Source: Actinomycetes bacterium
GTDB taxonomy: Bacteria; Actinomycetota; JAICYB01
Length of the DNA: 64,000 nucleotides
Direction of reading: 5' to 3'
Assembly: GCA_025934435.1 (NCBI GenBank)
Contig: JAICYB010000006.1
Coordinates: forward strand, 1 to 64,000
Shown: positions 13,643 through 24,419 of the stretch, one piece after another
Position numbering within the stretch: the first letter of the stretch is position 1
Layout: each line of letters begins with the position of its first letter
Notes under the pieces: generated by a model
Seen by the model: only the letters and a program-made list of their open reading frames with translations
Database searches by the model: none
Told to the model about the DNA's origin: nothing
Program-made: the position numbers and the translations under genes

Positions 13643-14122
13643 ATGCCCGGAGTCTGGAAGAAGGCGCTGATCTACCTCGGCCTCGTCGAAGAGGAAGAGG
13701 AGCTCGAGCCGTTGCCGACGGAAACGCACGAACCGACGACGTTTGAAACGGTTCGTCCGATCCGTCCCGATCTCCCGACGTCGAGTGTGCGACGTATCGG
13801 CGGCGACGAACCGCTGGCGGCGCCGTCGGCGATCGCACCGCGGGCGAGCATGCACGTCGTCGAGCCGCGCGCGTTCAACGACGCGAAGGAGATCGGCGAC
13901 AAGCTTCGAGTGAACTCCGCGGTCATCATGAACCTTCAGCACGCGAACGCGGACCTCGCGAAGCGTCTCGTCGATTTCGCGAGCGGTCTGACCTACATGG
14001 CACAGGGATCGATCAAGAAGGTCGGTGACCGTATCTTCCTGCTCACGCCGCCGAACGTGGAAGTCTCCGCGGACGAAGCCCGCGAGATGATGTCGGATCG
14101 CGGGTTCTTCAATCAGTTCTAG
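13643..14122 (+). CDS. sepF: Cell division protein SepF
   Basis: A 159-residue SepF. The N-terminal helix MPGVWKKALIYLGL is the amphipathic membrane anchor, then an acidic linker (EEEEEL) and a roughly 80-residue C-terminal domain (VVEPRAFNDAKEIGDKLRVNSAVIMNLQ ... ASGLTYMAQGSIKKVGDRIFLLTP) that dimerises and binds the FtsZ tail. An AGAGGAAG ribosome site precedes the ATG. In actinobacteria lacking FtsA, SepF tethers the Z ring to the membrane. Confidence 0.96.
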   Translation: MPGVWKKALIYLGLVEEEEELEPLPTETHEPTTFETVRPIRPDLPTSSVRRIGGDEPLAAPSAIAPRASMHVVEPRAFNDAKEIGDKLRVNSAVIMNLQHANADLAKRLVDFASGLTYMAQGSIKKVGDRIFLLTPPNVEVSADEAREMMSDRGFFNQF

Positions 14123-14139: not shown

Positions 14140-14427
14140 ATGAACTGCCCGACATGGGGACATTTCATCGTCTTCGCGATCGGCGCGTACTACAACCTGC
14201 TCTTCCTCTACATCATCGTTTCGTTGCTGCAGTCGCTCGCCGGACTTCGCATCCCCGACTGGCTCCGTCCGGCGGTGAACTTCACGTTCGACGCGTGTGA
14301 GCCGTTCCTTCGCGTGTTCCGCGGACTCATCCCGAACATCGGCATGCTCGATCTCTCGCCGATCCTCGGATTCTTCGCGTTGATCATCGTGCAGAACGTC
14401 GTGGCGCGGATCCTGCATTGCACCTAG
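14140..14427 (+). CDS. YggT-family membrane protein
   Basis: A 95-residue protein with two hydrophobic segments (about residues 10-32 and 70-92) separated by the YggT motif region SLAGLRIPDWLRPAVNFTFDACEPFLRVFRGLIPNIGMLDLSP. YggT (YlmG) proteins sit in division clusters after sepF and are linked to envelope or nucleoid organisation, with no enzyme activity known. The ATG at 14140 lies 17 bases after sepF. The end overlaps the next gene by ten bases. Confidence 0.9.
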   Translation: MNCPTWGHFIVFAIGAYYNLLFLYIIVSLLQSLAGLRIPDWLRPAVNFTFDACEPFLRVFRGLIPNIGMLDLSPILGFFALIIVQNVVARILHCT

Positions 14428-14747
14428 AAGTGCTCGAGGCGATACGCGTCCGCTACGCGGAGGCGGCACGCATGGGCAATGACCTGATGTCGCGGCTCGA
14501 GGCGATCCAAGCCGAGCGCGCGCGCTGGCAGCACTCGCTGGACGATCCCGAGCTCGCGGCCCGCGCACGTATGGAGCTGAACGAGATCGACCACCTCCGT
14601 CCACGGATCGAGCGCTCCGCCCACGCGTGGGTGGACAAAGCGCGGTCCCTCGAGCTCATCGTCGCCGCGTACGTGCGCGCGTCCGGTGTTCGAAGCGCCG
14701 AGGTCGGCGGGCATATGCGGTTGGAACGACGTTTGCAGCGACTCTGA
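14418..14747 (+). CDS. Unrecognised helical protein in the position usual for divIVA
   Basis: A 109-residue, charged, almost fully helical protein with heptad-like patterns (ARMELNEIDHLRPRIERSAHAWVDKARSLE). I do not recognise a family. Many actinobacteria carry divIVA/wag31 here after yggT, but the DivIVA N-terminal motif is absent. The TTG start at 14418 overlaps yggT by ten bases; a GTG at 14430 or ATG at 14472 are alternatives. There is no signal or membrane segment. A small coiled-coil division accessory is a guess from position only. Confidence 0.6.
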   Translation: MHLEVLEAIRVRYAEAARMGNDLMSRLEAIQAERARWQHSLDDPELAARARMELNEIDHLRPRIERSAHAWVDKARSLELIVAAYVRASGVRSAEVGGHMRLERRLQRL

Positions 14748-14806: not shown

Positions 14807-15352
14807 GTGCTCGTAGGACTTATCTGGGCGCTCGTCGTCGTCGCGGCGGTGCTCCTGATCGTCGGATTCTTCACCTCGGGGTCGAACATCCTGCTCATCC
14901 TCGCCATCGTCTTCGCGCTCGCCGCGATGATCCTCGTGCTCGGCTCCTGGGCGCGCCGCGCGAAGGAAGCCTCGACCGCGAACTTCGACGACACGATCGC
15001 CTTCGGAGGCGACGAAGCCGACGAGGACTCCGACGAGGTCTTCGCACGGGACGGTGACACCGAAGACGACATCACCGCGGCGATTCGCCGCGACCGTCCG
15101 GCCCGTCGTCCGGCGGCGAGGAAGGCGGGCGCGAAGCCCGCCGCGAAACCGACAGCGTCGCGCCGCAGCGCGAGCGGCGGCGCATCTGCCGCAAAGGCCA
15201 AGCCGAAAGCGGCGAAGTCGAAAGCCAAGCCGAAGGCGAAGTCGACGGCGTCGAAGGGCACAGCGAAGCGGAAGCCGGCAGCGAAACCCAAGGCGAAGCC
15301 GGCCTCGCGTCCGAAGGCCAAGCCGCCGCGCCGTCGTCCGCCGACGCAGTAA
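14807..15352 (+). CDS. Membrane protein with Lys/Ala/Pro-rich H1-like tail (paralogue 1)
   Basis: A 181-residue protein. Two transmembrane helices (about residues 3-22 and 27-46) are joined by a short GSN turn, followed by RRAK, so both ends should be cytoplasmic. An acidic linker (residues 65-87) precedes a tail of about 80 residues of AKPKA-type repeats, resembling histone H1 and bacterial H1-like proteins. An excellent ribosome site (TAAGGAGG) precedes the GTG start. The next gene has the same plan. Function unknown; a membrane-tethered nucleic-acid or polyanion binder is inference. Confidence 0.75.
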   Translation: MLVGLIWALVVVAAVLLIVGFFTSGSNILLILAIVFALAAMILVLGSWARRAKEASTANFDDTIAFGGDEADEDSDEVFARDGDTEDDITAAIRRDRPARRPAARKAGAKPAAKPTASRRSASGGASAAKAKPKAAKSKAKPKAKSTASKGTAKRKPAAKPKAKPASRPKAKPPRRRPPTQ

Positions 15353-15364
15353 GAAGGCACGGGC

Positions 15365-15985
15365 GTGGCCCGGCTGACCTACGGATTCCTCGCGGCCGCC
15401 GCTGCGTCGCTCATCGCGGGGTTCTTCATCAAGGGATCGAGCTTTCCTTTGTGGATCTCCGTGGCGCTGTCTGTCGCCGTAGCCGCTCTGATCATGTACG
15501 GCTGGTCTCGCGTCGCGCGCGAAGGCGTGGACGAGGACACGGACGACTCTGTCGAGGAGTTCGACGTCGACGAGGACGACGCCGAACCGGAACCCCGGGT
15601 CGCATCGCCCAAGCCCTCGCGTCGCCGCGCGAAGGTCGACGAGACGATCGAGATCACGACGGACGACTCACTCTTCGCTCCGCCGAAGGCGGAGGCGAAG
15701 GCCACGCCGAAGCCCAAGGCAAGAGCCAAACCCAAGGCAACGGCCAAACCCAAAGCAACGGCCAAACCCAAAGCGAAAGCGCCCGCGAAGAAGACCGAAC
15801 CGGCGAAGAAGACCGCTCCCGCGAAGAAGTCATCTGCACGCGGACCGCGTGTGGCCGTTGTCCCGGGCGCGTCGCGCTATCACCGGCCGAGTTGCCGCTT
15901 CGCCAAGGCGGCGAACATCAGGATGGTCTCCGAACGCATCGCGGTCGAACGCGGATATCGCGCGTGCGACGTGTGTAAGCCCTAA
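15365..15985 (+). CDS. Membrane protein with H1-like tail and C-terminal zinc-site (paralogue 2)
   Basis: A 206-residue protein with the plan of its upstream neighbour: two transmembrane helices joined by a GSS turn, a strongly acidic linker (residues 54-78), then KPKATAKPKA repeats. It adds a C-terminal module of about 40 residues with His173, Cys177, Cys201 and Cys204 in the pattern YHxxxC ... GYxxCxxC. That pattern is known from zinc-binding modules found in Ada-like and secreted nuclease proteins. Its stop overlaps the stop of the convergent def gene. Start GTG, 12 bases after paralogue 1. Confidence 0.75.
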   Translation: MARLTYGFLAAAAASLIAGFFIKGSSFPLWISVALSVAVAALIMYGWSRVAREGVDEDTDDSVEEFDVDEDDAEPEPRVASPKPSRRRAKVDETIEITTDDSLFAPPKAEAKATPKPKARAKPKATAKPKATAKPKAKAPAKKTEPAKKTAPAKKSSARGPRVAVVPGASRYHRPSCRFAKAANIRMVSERIAVERGYRACDVCKP

Positions 15986-16482
15986 CCGCGTTTGCGCGGG
16001 AAGACGTCCGTCGCCACGCTCGTGACGCGATCGAGGAACAAGATCCCGTCGAGATGATCGATCTCGTGCAGCAGCGCGCGAGCCTCGAAAGCGTCGGCGG
16101 CGATCTCTCGCGCCGATCCATCGGGAGTGAGTCCGCGCACGGTCACGTCCGCCGCGCGGCGGACGTTCGCCGTGAACTCCGGGATCGACAGGCATCCCTC
16201 ACGCGCGACGGCGGAGCCGGATGATCTCACGACGACGGGATCGAACAGGACGATCAATCCCGCACACGATCGTGCCTTCGCATGGCCTGTGACATCGACG
16301 ACGATGCATCGCCGGAGCTCGCCGATCTGGTTCGCGGCGAGACCGACGCACCGTTCGTTCGCCCGCATCGTGTCGACGAGATCGGTTGCGAGCGAGCGGG
16401 CGGCGCCGTCGATCGTGGCCACGCCCGCGGCGCGGCGTTTCAGAACCGGATCGGGATAGATCCGGACGTCACGGACGGTCAC
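15982..16482 (-). CDS. def: Peptide deformylase
   Basis: A 166-residue metalloprotease removing the N-formyl group from new proteins. All three motifs are present: GLAANQIG (47-54), EGCLS (95-99, metal ligand Cys97) and HEIDH (139-143, two metal histidines and the catalytic Glu). The GTG start overlaps the stop of the ACT-domain gene, so ileS, the ACT gene and def form one minus-strand unit. Its TAG stop interlocks with the TAA of the convergent plus-strand gene, leaving no room for a terminator. Confidence 0.95.
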   Translation of the reverse strand: MTVRDVRIYPDPVLKRRAAGVATIDGAARSLATDLVDTMRANERCVGLAANQIGELRRCIVVDVTGHAKARSCAGLIVLFDPVVVRSSGSAVAREGCLSIPEFTANVRRAADVTVRGLTPDGSAREIAADAFEARALLHEIDHLDGILFLDRVTSVATDVFPRKRG

Positions 16483-16991: not shown

Positions 16992-19900
16992 CTACGCCTT
17001 CGTGACGTGGACGCTCACGTCCGCGTCCTCGACCTTGACCGACGTCCAGCCCTCGAGGCCGCCGCCTACGGCGTAGGTGATCGACTCGGCGAGGAGTTCG
17101 TCGGTGATGTAGTACTCGTGCTCCTCCAGCGCTTCGATCGTCTGCGCCGGACCGGCAACGGCGAGGGAGATGCGGTCCGTGACGTCGAGCCCTGCGTCAC
17201 GGCGCGCGTTCTGCACCTGGTGAACGAATTCGCGCGCGATGCCTTCGCGGCGCAGTTCAGGCGTGATCTCGAGGTCGAGCGACACGCCGAACGGCGCTTC
17301 GTAGGCGAACGCGGTGCCTTCCGCCGGTTCGCGACGGATGTCGACGTGCTCGGGACCGACGACGAGCGGCTCGCCGCCTTCGACATCGAGTTCGATCTCC
17401 ATGCCCTGCTCGAGTGTCGTTGCCATCGCGCCGGCTTCGTCCGTACCGAGAGCGCCGAGCGCCGTCTGTAGCTCGCGCACGCGGGGGCCGAACGCGGGCC
17501 CGGCCGCCGCGAAGTTCGGACGAAGCGTCGTGCGAACGAGCTCGCTCGCTTCTTCGGCGAACGCGAGCTCTTTCACATTGAGTTCGTCCGCGAGGAGTTC
17601 GGCGACCTCTTCGACGGCGTCGCGCAGATCCCACGGGACGAGCAGCACCGCTTGGCGCAACGCCTGGCGGACCTTGACTCCCGCCGAGCGCCGAGCCGAG
17701 TGTCCGAGCGAAGCGAGCTCACGCGCCGAAGCCATGCCGGCGGAGATCCGTGGATCGACGATCTCCGGATCGCCGACGGGGAAGTCGGTCAGGTGGATGC
17801 TCGGCAATGCCTTCGGGTTCAGCTCGGTCACGAGGTTCCGGTAGAGCTCATCCGCGAGGAAGGGTGCGAACGGGCTGAGCAGACCGGCGAGCTTCACGAG
17901 TGCGGTCCACAGGGTCCAGTACGCGTTCGACTTGTCGGCCTTCTCCTCGTCGTTCGCCGCTGCCTTCCAGAACCGCTCGCGACACCGGCGGACGTACCAG
18001 TTCGAGAGGTCGTCGATGAACTCCGCGATGCGACGCGTCGCGGTGAGGGAGTCGTGATCCTCGAGGGCTTCGTCCACCTCGAAGATCAGCACGTTCAATT
18101 CCGACAGCAGCCAGCGGTCGATCGGTGGACGCATGCGGGGATCGGCCACTCGCCATGTATCGGGATCGAAGCCGTCGATGTTCGCGTACAACACGTAGAG
18201 CCGGTAGACGTTCCACAGCGTGAGGAACGGCCCCCGGATCACCTGGCGCAACGCTTCCTCTGAGAGGCGTCGTGAGTCCGCGGGGTCGCCCGCGGACAAG
18301 AAGTAGAAGCGCAATGCATCCGACCCGAAGTTGGAGAACACCGTCCAGGGGTCGGAGATCGCCTTGTGCTTCGACATCTTCTTGCCGTCCTCGTCGAGGA
18401 TCAGGCCGTGGCAGATGACGGTCTCGTACGCGTTGCGATCGAACAAGCCGACGGATTCCGCCATCAGTGAGTAGAACCAACCGCGTGTCTGGTCGAGCGC
18501 TTCCGCGATGAACTGCGCCGGGAACTGCGCCTCGAACTGCGCCACGTTCTTGTGCGGGTAACCCCACTGCGCGAACGGCATCGCGCCGGCGTCGTACCAG
18601 ACGTCGATCACATCCGGCACGCGTTTCGACGTCTCCCCGCAATCGGGACACGCGAACGTGATGTCGTCGACATGCGGACGATGCAGGTCGATGCCGCTCA
18701 GGTCTCGTCCGGCGAGCTCGGAGAGCTCCGCCACCGATCCGATCGCTTTCTCGTGGTTGTTCGGACAGCGCCAGATGGGGAGCGGCGTCCCCCAGAAACG
18801 GAAGCGAGACAGCGACCAGTCGACGTTGTTGCGGAGCCAGTCTCCGTATCGTCCGTCGCGGATGTGCTCGGGGATCCAGTTCACACCGGCGTTCGCCTCG
18901 AGCATGCGGTCTTTGAATTCGGTCGTACGGATGTACCACGCCACGAGCGCGTAGTTGAGGAGCGCCGTGTCGCAGCGCCAGCAATGGGCGACGCGGTGCA
19001 TGATCCGCTCGGACCGCACGAGAACACCCGCGAGTGAGAGCAGCTCGGTGATCTGATCGTCGGCGGCTTTGACGAAGACACCTTCGAACTCGGGGACGCT
19101 CGCATCGAAGTTCCCGCTCTGGTCGACCGGGTTGTAGACGGGGATGTCGGCGGCACGGATCGCGTTCAAGTCGTCCGCGCCGAATGCGCCGGCCATGTGG
19201 ACGATGCCCGTTCCCTCTTCGATGTTCACGAAGTCCCCGGCGATCACGCGCCACGCGCGCTCGATCGCTTCGGGCGCGGCCCGGTCGAAGTAGCGCCGCG
19301 CGTACGGGAACGGCGGCTGGTATCGGAGACCGAGGAGATCTCGACCGGTGAATGTTGCGAGCGGTGTGGGTTCGTCCTCTCGGCCGAGCGCCTCCTTGAA
19401 CCGGTCGCGCGCGACGACGAGCTTGCGTCCCTCGTGCTCGACGACGATGTACGTGAAGTCCGGATTGACGGCGAGCGCGAGATGCGCGACGAGCGTCCAC
19501 GGCGTGGTCGTCCAGGCGGCGAACGACGCACCTTCGAGCGCGCCCGTTCCACCGATGATCGGGAACGCGAGCGTGACGCCGGGGTCGGAGACTTCGCGGT
19601 AGACGTCTTCCTGCCCGAGCTCGTGGTCGGACAGCGGCGTCTCGCAGCGAGGGCAGTACGCCGCGACGCGGTCGGCTTCGAAGAGGAGACCCTTCGCGTG
19701 GAACTGGGCGAGCGACCACCACACCGATTCGATGTACTCGTTCGACATCGTCTCGTAGGCGTTCTCGTAGTCGAGCCAGAAGGCGATGCGATCCGAGAAC
19801 CGGACGTAGTTCGTGATGTATTCGGAGACGGCGGCGCGGCAGAGGTTGTTGAAGCGCTCGATGCCGTAGTCGAGGATCTCGCGCTTGTGCTTGATGCCGA

Positions 19901-20198
19901 GCTTCTTCTCGACCTCGACCTCGGCCGGGAGCCCGTGGCAGTCCCAGCCGGCCTTCCGCGGGACGAACCGCCCCTTCATGGTCTGGAAGCGCGTGTAGAC
20001 GTCCTTGATCACGCGCGGCAGGACGTTGTGGACGCCGGGGGGAGCGTTGGCGTAGGGGGGTCCCTCGTAGAAGATCCAGGGCTCGGACCCCTCACGGAGG
20101 GTCAGGGCGCGGCGGGGGATCCCCTGCTCGTTCCACCACTCGAGGACGGCGCTCTCCATGGCGGGGAAGTCCGGGCGCGGATCGACGGGACGATGCAT
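16992..20198 (-). CDS. ileS: Isoleucyl-tRNA synthetase, long eukaryote-like type (IleS2)
   Basis: A 1068-residue class I synthetase charging tRNA-Ile. The text around the HIGH box is PPYANAPPGVHNVLPRVIKD, so HIGH reads GVHN, and KMSKHK is at 607-612. An editing domain (TTTPWTLVAHLALAV) and a cysteine pair (CPDCGETSK) are seen. The PPGVHNVL context and length resemble the second IleRS type, common in actinobacteria and often less sensitive to mupirocin. I chose the ATG at 20198 because TAGAAT lies ten bases upstream; a GTG at 20222 would add eight residues. Confidence 0.95.
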   Translation of the reverse strand: MHRPVDPRPDFPAMESAVLEWWNEQGIPRRALTLREGSEPWIFYEGPPYANAPPGVHNVLPRVIKDVYTRFQTMKGRFVPRKAGWDCHGLPAEVEVEKKLGIKHKREILDYGIERFNNLCRAAVSEYITNYVRFSDRIAFWLDYENAYETMSNEYIESVWWSLAQFHAKGLLFEADRVAAYCPRCETPLSDHELGQEDVYREVSDPGVTLAFPIIGGTGALEGASFAAWTTTPWTLVAHLALAVNPDFTYIVVEHEGRKLVVARDRFKEALGREDEPTPLATFTGRDLLGLRYQPPFPYARRYFDRAAPEAIERAWRVIAGDFVNIEEGTGIVHMAGAFGADDLNAIRAADIPVYNPVDQSGNFDASVPEFEGVFVKAADDQITELLSLAGVLVRSERIMHRVAHCWRCDTALLNYALVAWYIRTTEFKDRMLEANAGVNWIPEHIRDGRYGDWLRNNVDWSLSRFRFWGTPLPIWRCPNNHEKAIGSVAELSELAGRDLSGIDLHRPHVDDITFACPDCGETSKRVPDVIDVWYDAGAMPFAQWGYPHKNVAQFEAQFPAQFIAEALDQTRGWFYSLMAESVGLFDRNAYETVICHGLILDEDGKKMSKHKAISDPWTVFSNFGSDALRFYFLSAGDPADSRRLSEEALRQVIRGPFLTLWNVYRLYVLYANIDGFDPDTWRVADPRMRPPIDRWLLSELNVLIFEVDEALEDHDSLTATRRIAEFIDDLSNWYVRRCRERFWKAAANDEEKADKSNAYWTLWTALVKLAGLLSPFAPFLADELYRNLVTELNPKALPSIHLTDFPVGDPEIVDPRISAGMASARELASLGHSARRSAGVKVRQALRQAVLLVPWDLRDAVEEVAELLADELNVKELAFAEEASELVRTTLRPNFAAAGPAFGPRVRELQTALGALGTDEAGAMATTLEQGMEIELDVEGGEPLVVGPEHVDIRREPAEGTAFAYEAPFGVSLDLEITPELRREGIAREFVHQVQNARRDAGLDVTDRISLAVAGPAQTIEALEEHEYYITDELLAESITYAVGGGLEGWTSVKVEDADVSVHVTKA

Positions 20199-20208
20199 GG
20201 TGGCGCCG

Positions 20209-20214
20209 ATTCTA
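20209..20214 (-). promoter_or_regulatory. Possible -10 box for ileS (leaderless)
   Basis: Read on the minus strand this is TAGAAT, five of six to TATAAT, ten bases before the ileS ATG with no Shine-Dalgarno sequence between. The -35 region is weak. No T-box riboswitch features were seen upstream, although T-boxes often precede ileS in related bacteria. Confidence 0.35.
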
Positions 20215-20261
20215 CGGGTCACGCCGGGCGCGGTTAGTCCCTCAACGGTGGACCGCCGTCA

Positions 20262-20357: not shown

Positions 20358-23300
20358 ATGAAAACGCGACTTTCGATCGTTGCTGTATTCGCCTTGGTCG
20401 CCGGGCTGTTCGTCGGGGGTTCGGCCGCGGCAGCCGTTCCGGCGAACGATAACTTCGCGTCCGCTACATCGCTCGGTAACGGCACGACTGCGACCATCGC
20501 CGGCAGCAACGTCGGCGCCACCGGCGAGGCCGGCGAACCGAACCACGCGAACGTTTCCCTCAAATCGGGTTGCACCGACGCAACTCATCCGAACTCCGGA
20601 TGTGAGCCGTCCGTCTGGTACACGTGGACCGCGCCGGACGCGAACGCGTACACCATCCAGCTTTGCGGCAGCGATTACGACACGACGCTCGGCGTGTACA
20701 CAGGGACCGCCGTCGGCGCGCTGACGGCGGTCGGCAGCGACGACAACGGGACGGGGTGCTCGTCGAACCTTCCGAGCCGAGTGACGCTGACCACGACCAC
20801 CGGCACGACCTACAACATCGCTGTGGCGGGTTTTCACGGCGCTAGTGGAACCATCAGTGGAATGATCCAGCCCTGCACCGACGCTGCTGCGCATTGTCCC
20901 GCGCCGGACGCAACCACGACGGCCGCAACGGGGCTGAGCGGTACGGGCGCGACCCTCAATGGAACCGTCAATCCCAACGGGCAATCGACCGACTACCTCT
21001 TCAGGTACGGGACCTCTCCGACCGCGCTCTCGAGCGACACGGCGCCTGCGACGTCCGCGGGGAACGGTTCGGCGCCCGCAGCGGCCACGGCGATGGTCAC
21101 CGGGCTTGCGCCGTCGACGACCTACTACTTCCAGGTCGAAGCGACGAACGGTGCCGGTACATCGGACGGTGCGATCAAGAGCTTCACGACGAACGCTCAG
21201 CCGACGGTGACGACGGGCTCGGCCACCGGGGTGACGGGTACATCGGCGACGCTGAATGGCACCGTCAACCCAGCCGGGTCGCCGACCACATACCACTTCG
21301 AGTACGGGACCACGACTGGTTATGGGACCAACACCGCGACGATCTCGGCCGGTTCGGGAACGACGACGCAATCGGTGTCGGCTCCGATCAGCGGTCTCAC
21401 GACCGGGCAGACGTATCACTTCCGTCTCGTTGCGGTGAACACCGGTGGTTCGTCCAACGGTGACGACGCATCCTTCAAGACGTTCGCCGCGCCTGTCGCC
21501 ACGACGGGGACGGCCTCGCCGGTCACGCCGGTCGGTGCGACGCTCAACGCGACGGTCAACCCGTCCGGTCAGCCGACCTCGTACCACTTCGAGTGGGGAA
21601 CGAACACGAATTACGGCAACCTGACGCCGTCGGCGAGCGCCGGCTCGGACAGTCACGACCACTCGGTGTCCGCCAACATCACCGGCCTCACCCCGAGCAC
21701 GCCGTACCACTTCCGCATCGTTGCGTCGAACGCGACGGGGATGACCCAAGGTGGCGACGGAACGTTTACGACGCTCGCGGCGAACCAGCCGCCGCACATC
21801 ACGTATCCGACGCCGAACGTCACGTCGGTCTCGGGCACGGCCGTGACGCTCAACGCGTTCGTCGATCCCGAGGGTGTCGCGACCAACACGATCCAATTCG
21901 ACTGGACACCGGATCCGTTGGTCGGGACCGTGTACCAGCACACGAACGTGGCCGCGGTACCGTCCTCACTGAGCGGCGACTCTGCGAACCACACCGTGAC
22001 CGCCTCGCTCACGGGTCTCACGGCGGGAACGACGTACCATTTCCGCGCGCACGCCGTGAACGCGAACGGAACGGGTACGGGCGCGGACCAGACGTTCGTC
22101 GCTGAAGCGCCGCCGACCGCAACGACCGATGCGGCAACGAATGTCATCGACGTGCAAGCGACCTTGAATGGACGCGTGAGCGCGCCGGCGACTACGACGA
22201 CGGGAGTCACCGGTCACTTCGAGTGGGGTACGGATACGACCTATGGGTCGACGACCGGCGATGTCGGCGTGACCGCCGACGGCAACAATCATTCCGTTTC
22301 GGCGGATCTTTCGAACCTCACGCCCGGGACGACGTACCACTACCGCCTCGTCGCAACGAACGGTGAGAGCACCGTGAATGGTGCCGATGCAACGTTCACG
22401 ACGAAGAAGAAGCCCGACGTCGTCACTGACCCCGCGACGTCGGTGACTCCGACGAGCGCGACACTCAATGGCACCGTGAACCCGAACGGTCTCGCGACGT
22501 CGTATCAATTCGAATACGACACGGTGAATCCGCCCGTCGCTCATACAGGAACGACGAGTGCCGGGTCCGGGACGACCGTCCAGCCGGCGAGCACGGCGGT
22601 CACCGGCCTCGCGCCCGGTACGACGTACTTCTTCCGTATCTCCGCGACGAGCGCGGCCAACGGCGGGACGCCGAGCAACGGCAGCATCCTGAGCTTCACG
22701 ACGCCCGCGAGCGCTGCGGCCTCGACGGGTCCAGCGACGTCGATCGACTCGACGGCGGCGACGCTGAACGGAACGGTCACCCCCGGCGGTCAAGACACCT
22801 CGTATCGCTTCGAGTACGGCCTCTCCAACATCTATGACCACACGACGCCGGTTGTCGACGCCGGAAACGGATCGGCGACCCAGAGCGTGTCCGCGGCCAT
22901 CACCGGGTTGACGGCGAGCACGCTGTACCACTTCCACGTTGTGGCGACTAACCCGAGCGGAACCTTCGACGGCGGTGACAACACCTTCACGACCGCGGCG
23001 AACGGAACGCCGCTCGCGTTCACCAAACCCGCCACGTTGGTCACACCGGCGAGCGCCACGCTGAACGCCACGGTGAATCCGCAGGGCAGTTCCACACAGG
23101 CGCAGTTCCTCTGGGGACCCACGACGTCATACGGGTTCTCGACGCCTCTGACGAACGTCGGTAGCGACAGCACGAACCACGCACTGAGCGCGGCGCTCAC
23201 ACGACTCACCGCAGGGCAGACGTACCACTACCAGGTCGTCGCGACGAACACCGCCGGCAGCGTGGCGGGCGACGATCTGACGTTCACCGCCGCGGCGGCG

Positions 23301-24419
23301 CCCACGGCGACGACGAAGCCCGCGTCGAACGTCGATGCGTTCACGGCGACGCTCAACGGCGCGATCAACCCGCAGGGCTCGGAGACAACGTTCCACTTCG
23401 AGTGGGCGACGTCCACGGCCTACGGCAACAACACACCCGAAGACACGCTCCCCGCTGATACTGCGACGCACAACGTCTCGGCGACGCTCGCGGGTCTCGA
23501 GCAAGGGCAGGTGTACCACTTCCGCGTGGTCGCCACGAACGCCGGCGGAACATCGAACGGCGCGGACATGACGTTCATCGCGTGCGGTTCGTGTCACGAC
23601 TTCAACGGCGACGGCAACCCGGACCTTCTGTACTGGAACAACCACACCGGACACATCTCGGTCTGGTTCATGGGCGGGACCGACAACGTCGTCAAACAGG
23701 GCGGTCACGAGATCTCGCCGGACGGCACATCGAACCTGGCGTGGAAGCCGTTCGCGGCCGGCGACGTGAACCGCGACGGCCATCCCGACATCGCGTACTG
23801 GAACAAGAGGACGGGTCACATCTCGATCTGGTTCATGGGCGGCACGAACGGCGTCGTCAAGCAGGGGAGCCAGGAGATCGTGCCGGACGGTACGTCGAAC
23901 ACGTCGTGGGTCCCGAGCGCGCTCGGCGACTTCAACGGCGACGGCAGGCTCGACATCATGTACTGGAACAAGAACACGGGCCACATCTCGATCTGGTTCA
24001 TGGGCGGTGCCAACGGTGTCGTGCGCCAGGGCGGACAGGAGATCACGCCGGACGGTACGTCCAACACGACGTGGATCCCCTTCGCGACGAGTGACGTCGA
24101 CACGAGCGGCACGACGGACATCGCGTTCTGGAACAACCACACCGGCCACATCTCGATGTGGTTCATGGGCGGGACGAACGGTACCGTCAAGCAGGGCGGT
24201 TCCGAGATCACGCCGGACGGCACGTCGAATACGGCGTGGACGCCGTTCGCGGCCGGCGATATCGACGGTGACGGTCAGCCGGATATCTCGTACTGGAACA
24301 AGCGGACGGGACACATCTCGGAGTGGTTCATGGGCGGGACCGACGGCGTGATCAAACAGGACAGCTCGGAGCTGACGCCGGACGGCACGTCCAACACGAC
24401 CTGGATCCCGTTCGACTGA
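20358..24419 (+). CDS. Large secreted protein: PPC-like domain, nine FN3-like repeats, five FG-GAP/VCBS-type repeats
   Basis: A 1353-residue exported protein. A signal peptide (about residues 1-26, ending SAAAA) is followed by a PPC-like beta domain (NDNFASATSLG ... SVWYTWTAPDANAYTIQLCGSDYDTTLGVYTG). Nine modules of about 95 residues follow, each with ATLNGTVNP, a YHFEYGT-like strand and LTPGTTYHFRLVATN: fibronectin-III-like. The last 270 residues are five 55-residue units starting like DFNGDGNPDLLYWN, with acidic calcium-binding-type loops, as in FG-GAP/VCBS propellers. There is no LPXTG or C-terminal membrane anchor. A surface or matrix adhesion role is inference. Confidence 0.88.
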   Translation: MKTRLSIVAVFALVAGLFVGGSAAAAVPANDNFASATSLGNGTTATIAGSNVGATGEAGEPNHANVSLKSGCTDATHPNSGCEPSVWYTWTAPDANAYTIQLCGSDYDTTLGVYTGTAVGALTAVGSDDNGTGCSSNLPSRVTLTTTTGTTYNIAVAGFHGASGTISGMIQPCTDAAAHCPAPDATTTAATGLSGTGATLNGTVNPNGQSTDYLFRYGTSPTALSSDTAPATSAGNGSAPAAATAMVTGLAPSTTYYFQVEATNGAGTSDGAIKSFTTNAQPTVTTGSATGVTGTSATLNGTVNPAGSPTTYHFEYGTTTGYGTNTATISAGSGTTTQSVSAPISGLTTGQTYHFRLVAVNTGGSSNGDDASFKTFAAPVATTGTASPVTPVGATLNATVNPSGQPTSYHFEWGTNTNYGNLTPSASAGSDSHDHSVSANITGLTPSTPYHFRIVASNATGMTQGGDGTFTTLAANQPPHITYPTPNVTSVSGTAVTLNAFVDPEGVATNTIQFDWTPDPLVGTVYQHTNVAAVPSSLSGDSANHTVTASLTGLTAGTTYHFRAHAVNANGTGTGADQTFVAEAPPTATTDAATNVIDVQATLNGRVSAPATTTTGVTGHFEWGTDTTYGSTTGDVGVTADGNNHSVSADLSNLTPGTTYHYRLVATNGESTVNGADATFTTKKKPDVVTDPATSVTPTSATLNGTVNPNGLATSYQFEYDTVNPPVAHTGTTSAGSGTTVQPASTAVTGLAPGTTYFFRISATSAANGGTPSNGSILSFTTPASAAASTGPATSIDSTAATLNGTVTPGGQDTSYRFEYGLSNIYDHTTPVVDAGNGSATQSVSAAITGLTASTLYHFHVVATNPSGTFDGGDNTFTTAANGTPLAFTKPATLVTPASATLNATVNPQGSSTQAQFLWGPTTSYGFSTPLTNVGSDSTNHALSAALTRLTAGQTYHYQVVATNTAGSVAGDDLTFTAAAAPTATTKPASNVDAFTATLNGAINPQGSETTFHFEWATSTAYGNNTPEDTLPADTATHNVSATLAGLEQGQVYHFRVVATNAGGTSNGADMTFIACGSCHDFNGDGNPDLLYWNNHTGHISVWFMGGTDNVVKQGGHEISPDGTSNLAWKPFAAGDVNRDGHPDIAYWNKRTGHISIWFMGGTNGVVKQGSQEIVPDGTSNTSWVPSALGDFNGDGRLDIMYWNKNTGHISIWFMGGANGVVRQGGQEITPDGTSNTTWIPFATSDVDTSGTTDIAFWNNHTGHISMWFMGGTNGTVKQGGSEITPDGTSNTAWTPFAAGDIDGDGQPDISYWNKRTGHISEWFMGGTDGVIKQDSSELTPDGTSNTTWIPFD
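20907..23582 (+). repeat. Nine diverged FN3-like protein modules
   Basis: Each module encodes about 95-105 residues and repeats the landmarks ATLNGTVNP, HFEYGT, SVSA-ITGLTPGTTYHFR and a closing FTT. Modules differ at most positions, so they are old duplications, unlike the very regular 165-base units that follow. Module 4 has a PEGVATNTIQFDWTPDP insertion and is the most divergent. Confidence 0.8.
23598..24416 (+). repeat. Five tandem 165-base units (FG-GAP/VCBS-type)
   Basis: The DFNGDG-type codons start at 23598, 23763, 23928, 24093 and 24258, exactly 165 bases apart. Each unit encodes DxxGDGxxDIxYWN, TGHISIWFMGG, VKQG and a PDGTSNTTW stretch. Period and text are nearly constant, which points to recent duplication or gene conversion. 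Five units fit a five-bladed propeller. Confidence 0.9.

Follow-up and report, generated by a model that had tools for sequence, protein, structure and literature searches.

Introduction

One protein that ties a membrane anchor, the nucleoid and DivIVA together is Rv3852, which was presented, in the part of the report that was available, as a membrane-anchored nucleoid protein that binds Wag31/DivIVA and affects the polar place of Wag31 (PMC8233713). The genes around divIVA have been linked to the nucleoid as well. Thus, SepG (YlmG, YggT family), encoded between sepF and divIVA, was stated in the accessible sections of one paper to be needed, directly or indirectly, for the compaction of spore nucleoids in Streptomyces; the same sections state that the deletion of ylmG in one cyanobacterium caused no notable segregation defect (PMC4852450). 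In the excerpt of a further source, YlmG was found to affect nucleoid distribution in chloroplasts and in a cyanobacterium (PMC2923531). SepX, a Streptomyces divisome protein, was described in the portion of its report at hand as having three membrane segments, which are joined by two largely disordered cytoplasmic regions (PMC8748795). Rv2144c of Mycobacterium tuberculosis was listed only as 'Unknown, TM' in the available part of its source (PMC5405230).

Here, two tandem genes, A and B, are described from the window, i.e., the whole 64,000-nucleotide stretch of actinomycete DNA that was analyzed. Among the literature matches listed, which were open-licence papers, no description of the membrane hairpin family of A and B or of its tails was found, and no relevant title was found among the matches listed for an Ada-type module in a membrane or nuclease context or for MSMEG_4216/cg2360/Rv2144.

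Results

Gene organization and composition of A and B

The genes in the window were arranged in the order ftsZ, pgeF, yggS, sepF, yggT, a 109-aa ORF, A and B, with def, an ACT-domain gene and ileS on the opposite strand (Table 1); yggS was identified from its place and sequence. The initial annotation had put A and B directly after ftsZ, sepF and yggT. Both genes do lie downstream of all three, but the 109-aa ORF separates yggT from A, and pgeF and yggS separate ftsZ from sepF. A long ORF (20358-24419, 1353 aa) with repeats of the secreted-protein type, as judged by eye, was noticed between ileS and dksA-lspA-rluD.

Table 1. Features of the A/B locus, with positions in the window.
Feature	Position	Strand	Basis
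sepF	13643..14122	+	PF04472, E 1.8e-24
yggT (ylmG/sepG family)	14140..14427	+	PF02325, E 1e-13
109-aa ORF, at the place of divIVA in relatives	14418..14747	+	No Pfam/NCBIfam match above cut-off; no DivIVA-profile match
Gene A: two-helix membrane hairpin, acidic linker and Lys/Ala/Pro tail, without zinc module	14807..15352	+	ORF (GTG start, 181 aa), composition, profile match
A hairpin, two membrane helices, about residues 1-50	14807..14956	+	Alignment A3
A acidic linker, residues 55-92, net charge -13	14969..15082	+	Composition
A histone-H1-like basic tail, residues 93-181 (89 aa), net charge +31	15083..15349	+	Composition
Gene B: two-helix membrane hairpin, acidic linker, Lys/Ala/Pro tail and Ada-like zinc module	15365..15985	+	ORF (GTG start, 206 aa), orthologs between yggT/divIVA and ileS
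B hairpin, two membrane helices, about residues 1-50	15365..15514	+	Alignments A1 and A3; topology of relatives
B acidic linker, residues 54-106, net charge -13	15524..15682	+	Composition
B basic AKP-rich tail, about residues 107-160 (53 aa), net charge +17	15683..15844	+	Composition
B Ada-like zinc module, residues 163-206, YHxxxC...CxxC	15851..15982	+	Pfam PF02805 below gathering score, profile against PDB, model and Foldseek to N-Ada
def, convergent, shares 4 bases with the end of B	15982..16482	-	PF01327, E 1.1e-40
ileS, convergent, bounds the locus in many relatives too	16992..20222	-	In 32/64 relative loci; not seen in 29; same strand in 3

The hairpin turns were FFTSGSN in A and FFIKGSS in B, and the tails of both proteins consisted of 27-30% Ala, 21-32% Lys and 15-16% Pro. 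By composition, a long Lys/Ala/Pro-rich basic stretch, as in histone H1-like tails generally, is present in A and B. The window has 270 six-frame ORFs of 100 aa or more; ranked by the Lys content of their best 60-aa stretch, these were headed by A and B with 0.28 each, and the next ORF reached 0.13. Because of this rank, the Lys-rich tails are not a compositional accident of a GC-rich genome. The end of B reads YHRPSC...GYRACDVCKP, and a strict form of this motif was matched by B only among the six-frame ORFs of at least 50 aa in the window.

The ORFs, turns, charges and composition confirmed the earlier reading of both genes as a hairpin with a GSS/GSN turn, an acidic linker and an AKP-rich basic tail. 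The YHxxxC...CxxC end of the second gene, which had been likened to a known zinc module, was indeed found and proved to be Ada-like by Pfam, profile and model.

The hairpin family and its gene neighbourhood

A profile of the hairpin alone (A3; 54 positions, 24 rows, with A, B and the f25 protein L194 among the rows) matched B at E 1.6e-13 and A at E 7.3e-12 in the window, both being rows of the profile. Gene A, which is not a row of the B-ortholog profile A1, matched the latter at E 2.3e-5. In the phylum, A3 matched 65 of 396 genomes, i.e., 64 besides that of the window; at most 24 of these 64 loci held rows of A3 or near copies, so that A3 was built from part of what it finds. Synteny played no part in choosing the matches.

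The typical order in relatives was sepF-yggT-divIVA-X, where X is the hairpin gene. Accordingly, 53 of the 64 genomes with a match had a co-oriented divIVA no more than 300 nt upstream, and 55 had a co-oriented sepF, yggT or divIVA no more than 2.5 kb upstream; a family located mostly away from division clusters, which would have spoken against the initial annotation, was not what this survey found. Nine matches had no such anchor gene nearby. Those of G241, G002 and G199 lay at contig ends, in G045 none was found, and the five others (G094, G266, G282, G179 and G223, the last also at a contig start) were weak, with E from 2.8e-6 to 8.9e-4, and probably arose by chance.

With the second contig of G210 left out and no usable ORF from G188 and G199, 62 proteins were obtained. 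A set of 56 syntenic proteins was made by leaving out the genomes without sepF, yggT or divIVA, except G241 and G002, where the contig ends and the zinc module and ileS are present. In families f1, f2 and f10, orthologs of B with the zinc module were flanked by yggT or divIVA on one side and by ileS on the other. Of 80 loci retrieved with the SepF alignment, most of which carry the label Actinomycetota or that of one of its classes, 11 had a hairpin protein after divIVA, with very different tails; in one of the 11, L105, it stood after yggT, and no divIVA was found there. A second tandem pair resembling A and B was not found in 202 loci (L001-L027, L046-L075 and L219-L254 left out, some loci cut by contig ends and some contigs duplicates), 74 of which had the core and none of which had two.

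In family f25, the matched stretch lay 26-97 nt after divIVA in all 12 genomes with a match. This family looks mycobacterial, judging by the PspM_Rv2743c model, which scored above its cut-off in G037. The f25 proteins are putative counterparts of Rv2144c, the gene of which presumably, by its numbering, adjoins wag31.

The membrane topology was predicted from a simple hydropathy scan of the 62 proteins, which include the weak, probably chance matches. In 60 of the 62, the 15 residues that follow helix 2 held more Lys and Arg than the turn did (means of 2.8 and 0.2, respectively), and the other two were ties. Therefore, by the positive-inside rule, both ends of the hairpin are predicted to be cytoplasmic. 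This is in agreement with the cytoplasmic tails expected at the outset, and tails facing outside were not predicted.

The 109-aa ORF and DivIVA

PF05103 (DivIVA) was matched in 36 of the 41 genomes searched, which included that of the window (G000). No match was found in G000, which is 94% complete, or in G001, i.e., in two of the three genomes of the family of the window genome. In the third, G002, yggT was followed immediately by a DivIVA-like ORF truncated at the contig end, and B was located at the start of another contig. A search of G000 and G001 with this ORF gave nothing convincing (best E 0.004, with stops).

The 109-aa ORF was considered as a degenerate DivIVA and rejected, since the DivIVA profile did not match it and a search of 202 loci yielded no relative at E≤1. 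DivIVA was not found directly upstream of A/B in this genome, and A and B occupy the place held elsewhere by DivIVA and its neighbour. As DivIVA was not found in G000, a link to DivIVA function cannot be assumed for A/B.

The Ada-like zinc module

The module of B matched the Ada metal-binding family of Pfam (PF02805) at E 7.5e-4 with 19.9 bits, below the gathering score of 23. A single-sequence search of the PDB with the module gave nothing at E≤10, and a profile of 20 modules (A4; the window and 19 loci) returned only Ada entries at E<1, the best at E 6.5e-4. In the alignment of A4 to Ada, the His of the module stood opposite the first Cys of FCRPSC, and the three Cys of the module stood opposite the other three of Ada. 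Both the His at this position and the remaining three Cys ligands were invariant in 20 of 20 rows. The replaced residue of Ada is presumably Cys38, the methyl acceptor, and we take the three Cys to be three of the four metal ligands of Ada.

The structure model of the module (pLDDT 83) retrieved N-Ada only from the PDB by Foldseek (1u8b with prob 0.99 and TMq 0.69, though at E 0.21), and two of the three N-Ada hits were complexes with DNA. Superposition of the model on N-Ada covered 46 residues at an rmsd of 1.9 (Z 5.2). As modelled, the module of B is an Ada zinc fold without its reactive Cys, and its binding of zinc or DNA is only putative.

The same module was seen in a second class of two-helix proteins (L032, 9159-9728; L033, 825-1343; L034, 9427-9993; L035, 15603-16163), and the fetched stretches of these four loci held no match to ftsZ, sepF, yggT or ileS of the window. 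It was also present at the C-termini of L036, L039, L040 and L041. By eye, L036, with a lipobox, and L041, with wall-binding-like repeats, look secreted or surface-anchored; L039 and L040 have the C-terminal part of L036 in common and carry membrane helices in addition. A nuclease-like protein carried the module in L043. Since secreted- or surface-looking proteins carry it too, the module is not by itself proof of DNA binding. In L042 (2040-2464) and L087 (1610-2034), the genomes of which are 95% identical in this stretch, the hairpin and the zinc part were encoded by separate overlapping ORFs. The break is identical in the two sequences, between which there is no gap, and the module can thus apparently occur on its own as well.

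Variable ends of the relatives

The 56 syntenic proteins comprised 10 with the zinc module, 9 with a helix-hairpin-helix (HhH) end, 12 with an H1-like Lys-rich end and 3 with repeated YDxL, the classes overlapping. At least one of these four kinds of end was found in 27 proteins and none in 29, the latter including 12/12 of f25, 3/3 of f26, 6/11 of f2 and 4/5 of f42. The tails were acidic in the nine longer proteins of f25 (net charge -14 to -23), very short in the other three, and proline-rich in the three proteins of f26.

When Pfam was searched at E≤0.001 with 58 members, i.e., the 56 and A and B, HHH_5 was found in nine, all of them above the gathering score, and HC2 was found in five. L197 and L090, the latter on the same contig as L261, passed the gathering score of HC2, and L280, L202 and L181 remained below it. 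Neither A nor B gave an HC2 row at E≤1, and the whole genome gave none at E≤0.1; in the lack of a Pfam HC2 match, the membership of A/B in the HC2/H1 family was rejected.

The HhH end of L196 gave 19 weak NCBIfam rows, the strongest of which were DNA enzymes such as UvrC and Hef and two of which were ribosomal-protein models. The YDxL repeat module (L091, L082, L105, L142, L156, L181, L280 and L281), which was considered as a candidate for a known DNA-binding fold, was predicted to form three helices (pLDDT 88), and its model had no significant match in the PDB (best E 2.8). The one lead on this module is a resemblance to part of the Rv1109c lipid-droplet protein model NF033649 (E 1.7e-8, under the cut-off).

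On a quick, short SepF tree of 55 rows with weak deep branches, the least numbers of changes were 7, 6, 9 and 1 for the zinc, HhH, H1-like and YDxL ends, respectively. With at least seven, six and nine changes for the first three, the ends turned over while the anchor stayed. The hairpin anchor and its place are constant, and the ends vary.

Discussion

From the gene layout, the family and its synteny, the tail composition, the predicted topology, the Ada-like fold and the other DNA-binding-type ends of relatives, all of which come from the present analysis, we infer DNA binding, a place in the cell and an effect on division. It was proposed that A and B tie the nucleoid to the membrane, which is the best single explanation, held tentatively and as somewhat short of probable. 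The two proteins would be tandem members of a membrane hairpin family, the genes of which neighbour sepF and yggT and, in relatives, also divIVA. Both ends of the membrane-embedded hairpin would face the cytoplasm, and the acidic linker may act as a disordered spacer. The Lys/Ala/Pro tail, together with the Ada-like module of B, would grip nucleic acid, with chromosomal DNA, bound irrespective of sequence, as the most likely ligand. SepF/FtsZ or DivIVA would mark the sites at which the nucleoid is thereby tied to the membrane, with A as a tail-only tether and B as a tether with an added zinc grip.

The synteny with divIVA (53/64), the charge-rule topology (60/62), the stand-out Lys content of the tails and the printed nucleoid links of the neighbour YggT/SepG/YlmG and of the Wag31-binding Rv3852 argue for the tether. 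So does the recurrence at the same place of HHH_5 (9/58), HC2 (5/58) and the zinc module (10/56): an anchor next to sepF, yggT and divIVA that bears three dissimilar DNA-binding-type ends makes a membrane-nucleoid tether the favoured reading for those lineages in which such ends occur. Against it stand the 29 of 56 syntenic relatives without any of the four ends, the lack of an HC2 match of A/B, the His of the zinc module in place of the Cys through which Ada acts, and DivIVA, the place-marking partner elsewhere, which was not found in G000 or G001. The ability of HhH domains to bind proteins counts against the tether as well. Furthermore, the effect of SepG on nucleoids may be indirect, as worded in the available sections of that report (PMC4852450).

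With such an end lacking in 29 of 56 relatives and with acidic tails in nine proteins of f25, DNA tethering cannot be a function common to the entire family, and the acidic tails of f25 together with the proline-rich tails of f26 indicate that the anchor has another or wider function. Tethering is at most a lineage-specific use, as about half of the family has acidic, proline-rich or very short tails. Thus, the idea of a membrane tether for DNA near the septum, put forward in the initial annotation, gained from the tail topology, the place in the division cluster and the HHH_5 and HC2 ends of relatives, and it failed as a function of the whole family.

The constancy of the hairpin, the only constant part, and the same 29 relatives without any counted end would suit a membrane adaptor of the division or polar-growth machinery, which is the main rival, albeit a rather unlikely one. 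The hairpin would then bind SepF, DivIVA or YggT, the tail would be a spacer or a protein-binding arm as in ZipA, and DNA binding would be absent or incidental. The acidic tails of nine f25 proteins point the same way. A and B showed a low-complexity similarity to ZipA, with 20.1 bits (E 5.6e-4) and 24.9 bits (E 1.9e-5), respectively, against the model TIGR02205, far below its cut-off of 119.65. The similarities of A/B to ZipA, TonB and TolA were all judged to be of low complexity, being far under the NCBIfam cut-offs. The SepX/GlpR model NF050099 gave no row for A or B at E≤1, and L194 scored 20.8 against the 150 bits needed. SepX is, in the accessible portion of its description, a divisome protein with membrane segments and largely disordered cytoplasmic regions (PMC8748795), which also fits an adaptor. 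However, an adaptor leaves the recurrence of HhH, H1-like and Ada-like ends on this anchor unexplained.

It is improbable that the ligands bound and kept at the membrane by the basic tail and the zinc module are RNA, ribosomes or polyphosphate instead of DNA. The composition of Lys/Ala/Pro tails does not make them selective, RNA-linked proteins also contain HhH and zinc modules, and two ribosomal-protein models were among the 19 weak NCBIfam rows of the L196 HhH end; however, the strongest of these rows were DNA enzymes such as UvrC and Hef, and the zinc module has its solved homologues in a DNA-repair domain. Least probable of all is a redox, metal or alkylation sensor, an Ada relic with tails that only set the distance from the membrane, since the Ada fold with three Cys and one His would allow it but the reactive Cys is replaced by His in 20/20 rows of A4 and the module is absent from A and often lost or gained in the family.

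Returning to the tether, a wider form of it is possible, if doubtful. In many Actinomycetota, the gene next to divIVA may encode a chromosome-envelope tether in which a fixed hairpin carries a DNA grip of interchangeable type (H1-like, helix-hairpin-helix or Ada fold without the reactive Cys) and couples the position of the nucleoid to the septum or pole, the grip being lost or replaced where the tails are acidic or short. For nucleoid-septum coordination in Actinomycetota, a divIVA-adjacent gene with one anchor and swapped DNA-binding-type ends would be a direct, testable candidate. The hairpin family also gives reason to examine its uncharacterised mycobacterial relative.

Comparison with known systems

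The f25 proteins, with Rv2144c of Mycobacterium tuberculosis as a putative counterpart, come close to A/B. They share the two-helix hairpin with A/B, are encoded right after divIVA and are matched by A3; in contrast to A/B, the f25 proteins have an acidic or very short tail and neither a zinc nor an H1-like part.

The N-terminal domain of Ada (PF02805; 1u8b, 1zgw, 1wpk, 1adn) resembles the module of B in fold and in three of the four metal ligands. The latter differs in its His in place of the methyl-accepting Cys, in its membrane anchor and in a Pfam score below gathering. The histone H1-like nucleoproteins of HC2 (PF07382) are Lys/Ala-rich like the tails of A/B, and the relatives L197 and L090 pass the gathering score of this family, whereas A/B are membrane-anchored and do not match HC2.

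ZipA, which has one membrane helix, and SepX are similar to A/B in combining a membrane anchor with a disordered cytoplasmic part, but their helix numbers are different and they have no DNA-type end. Rv3852, compared by its description in the available part of the source, is close to the proposed role of A/B, as it has a membrane anchor, a DNA-binding part and a link to DivIVA; unlike A/B, it has a single C-terminal membrane helix and is said to be restricted to M. tuberculosis and close relatives (PMC8233713). Membrane-anchored nucleoid proteins are already known as a kind.
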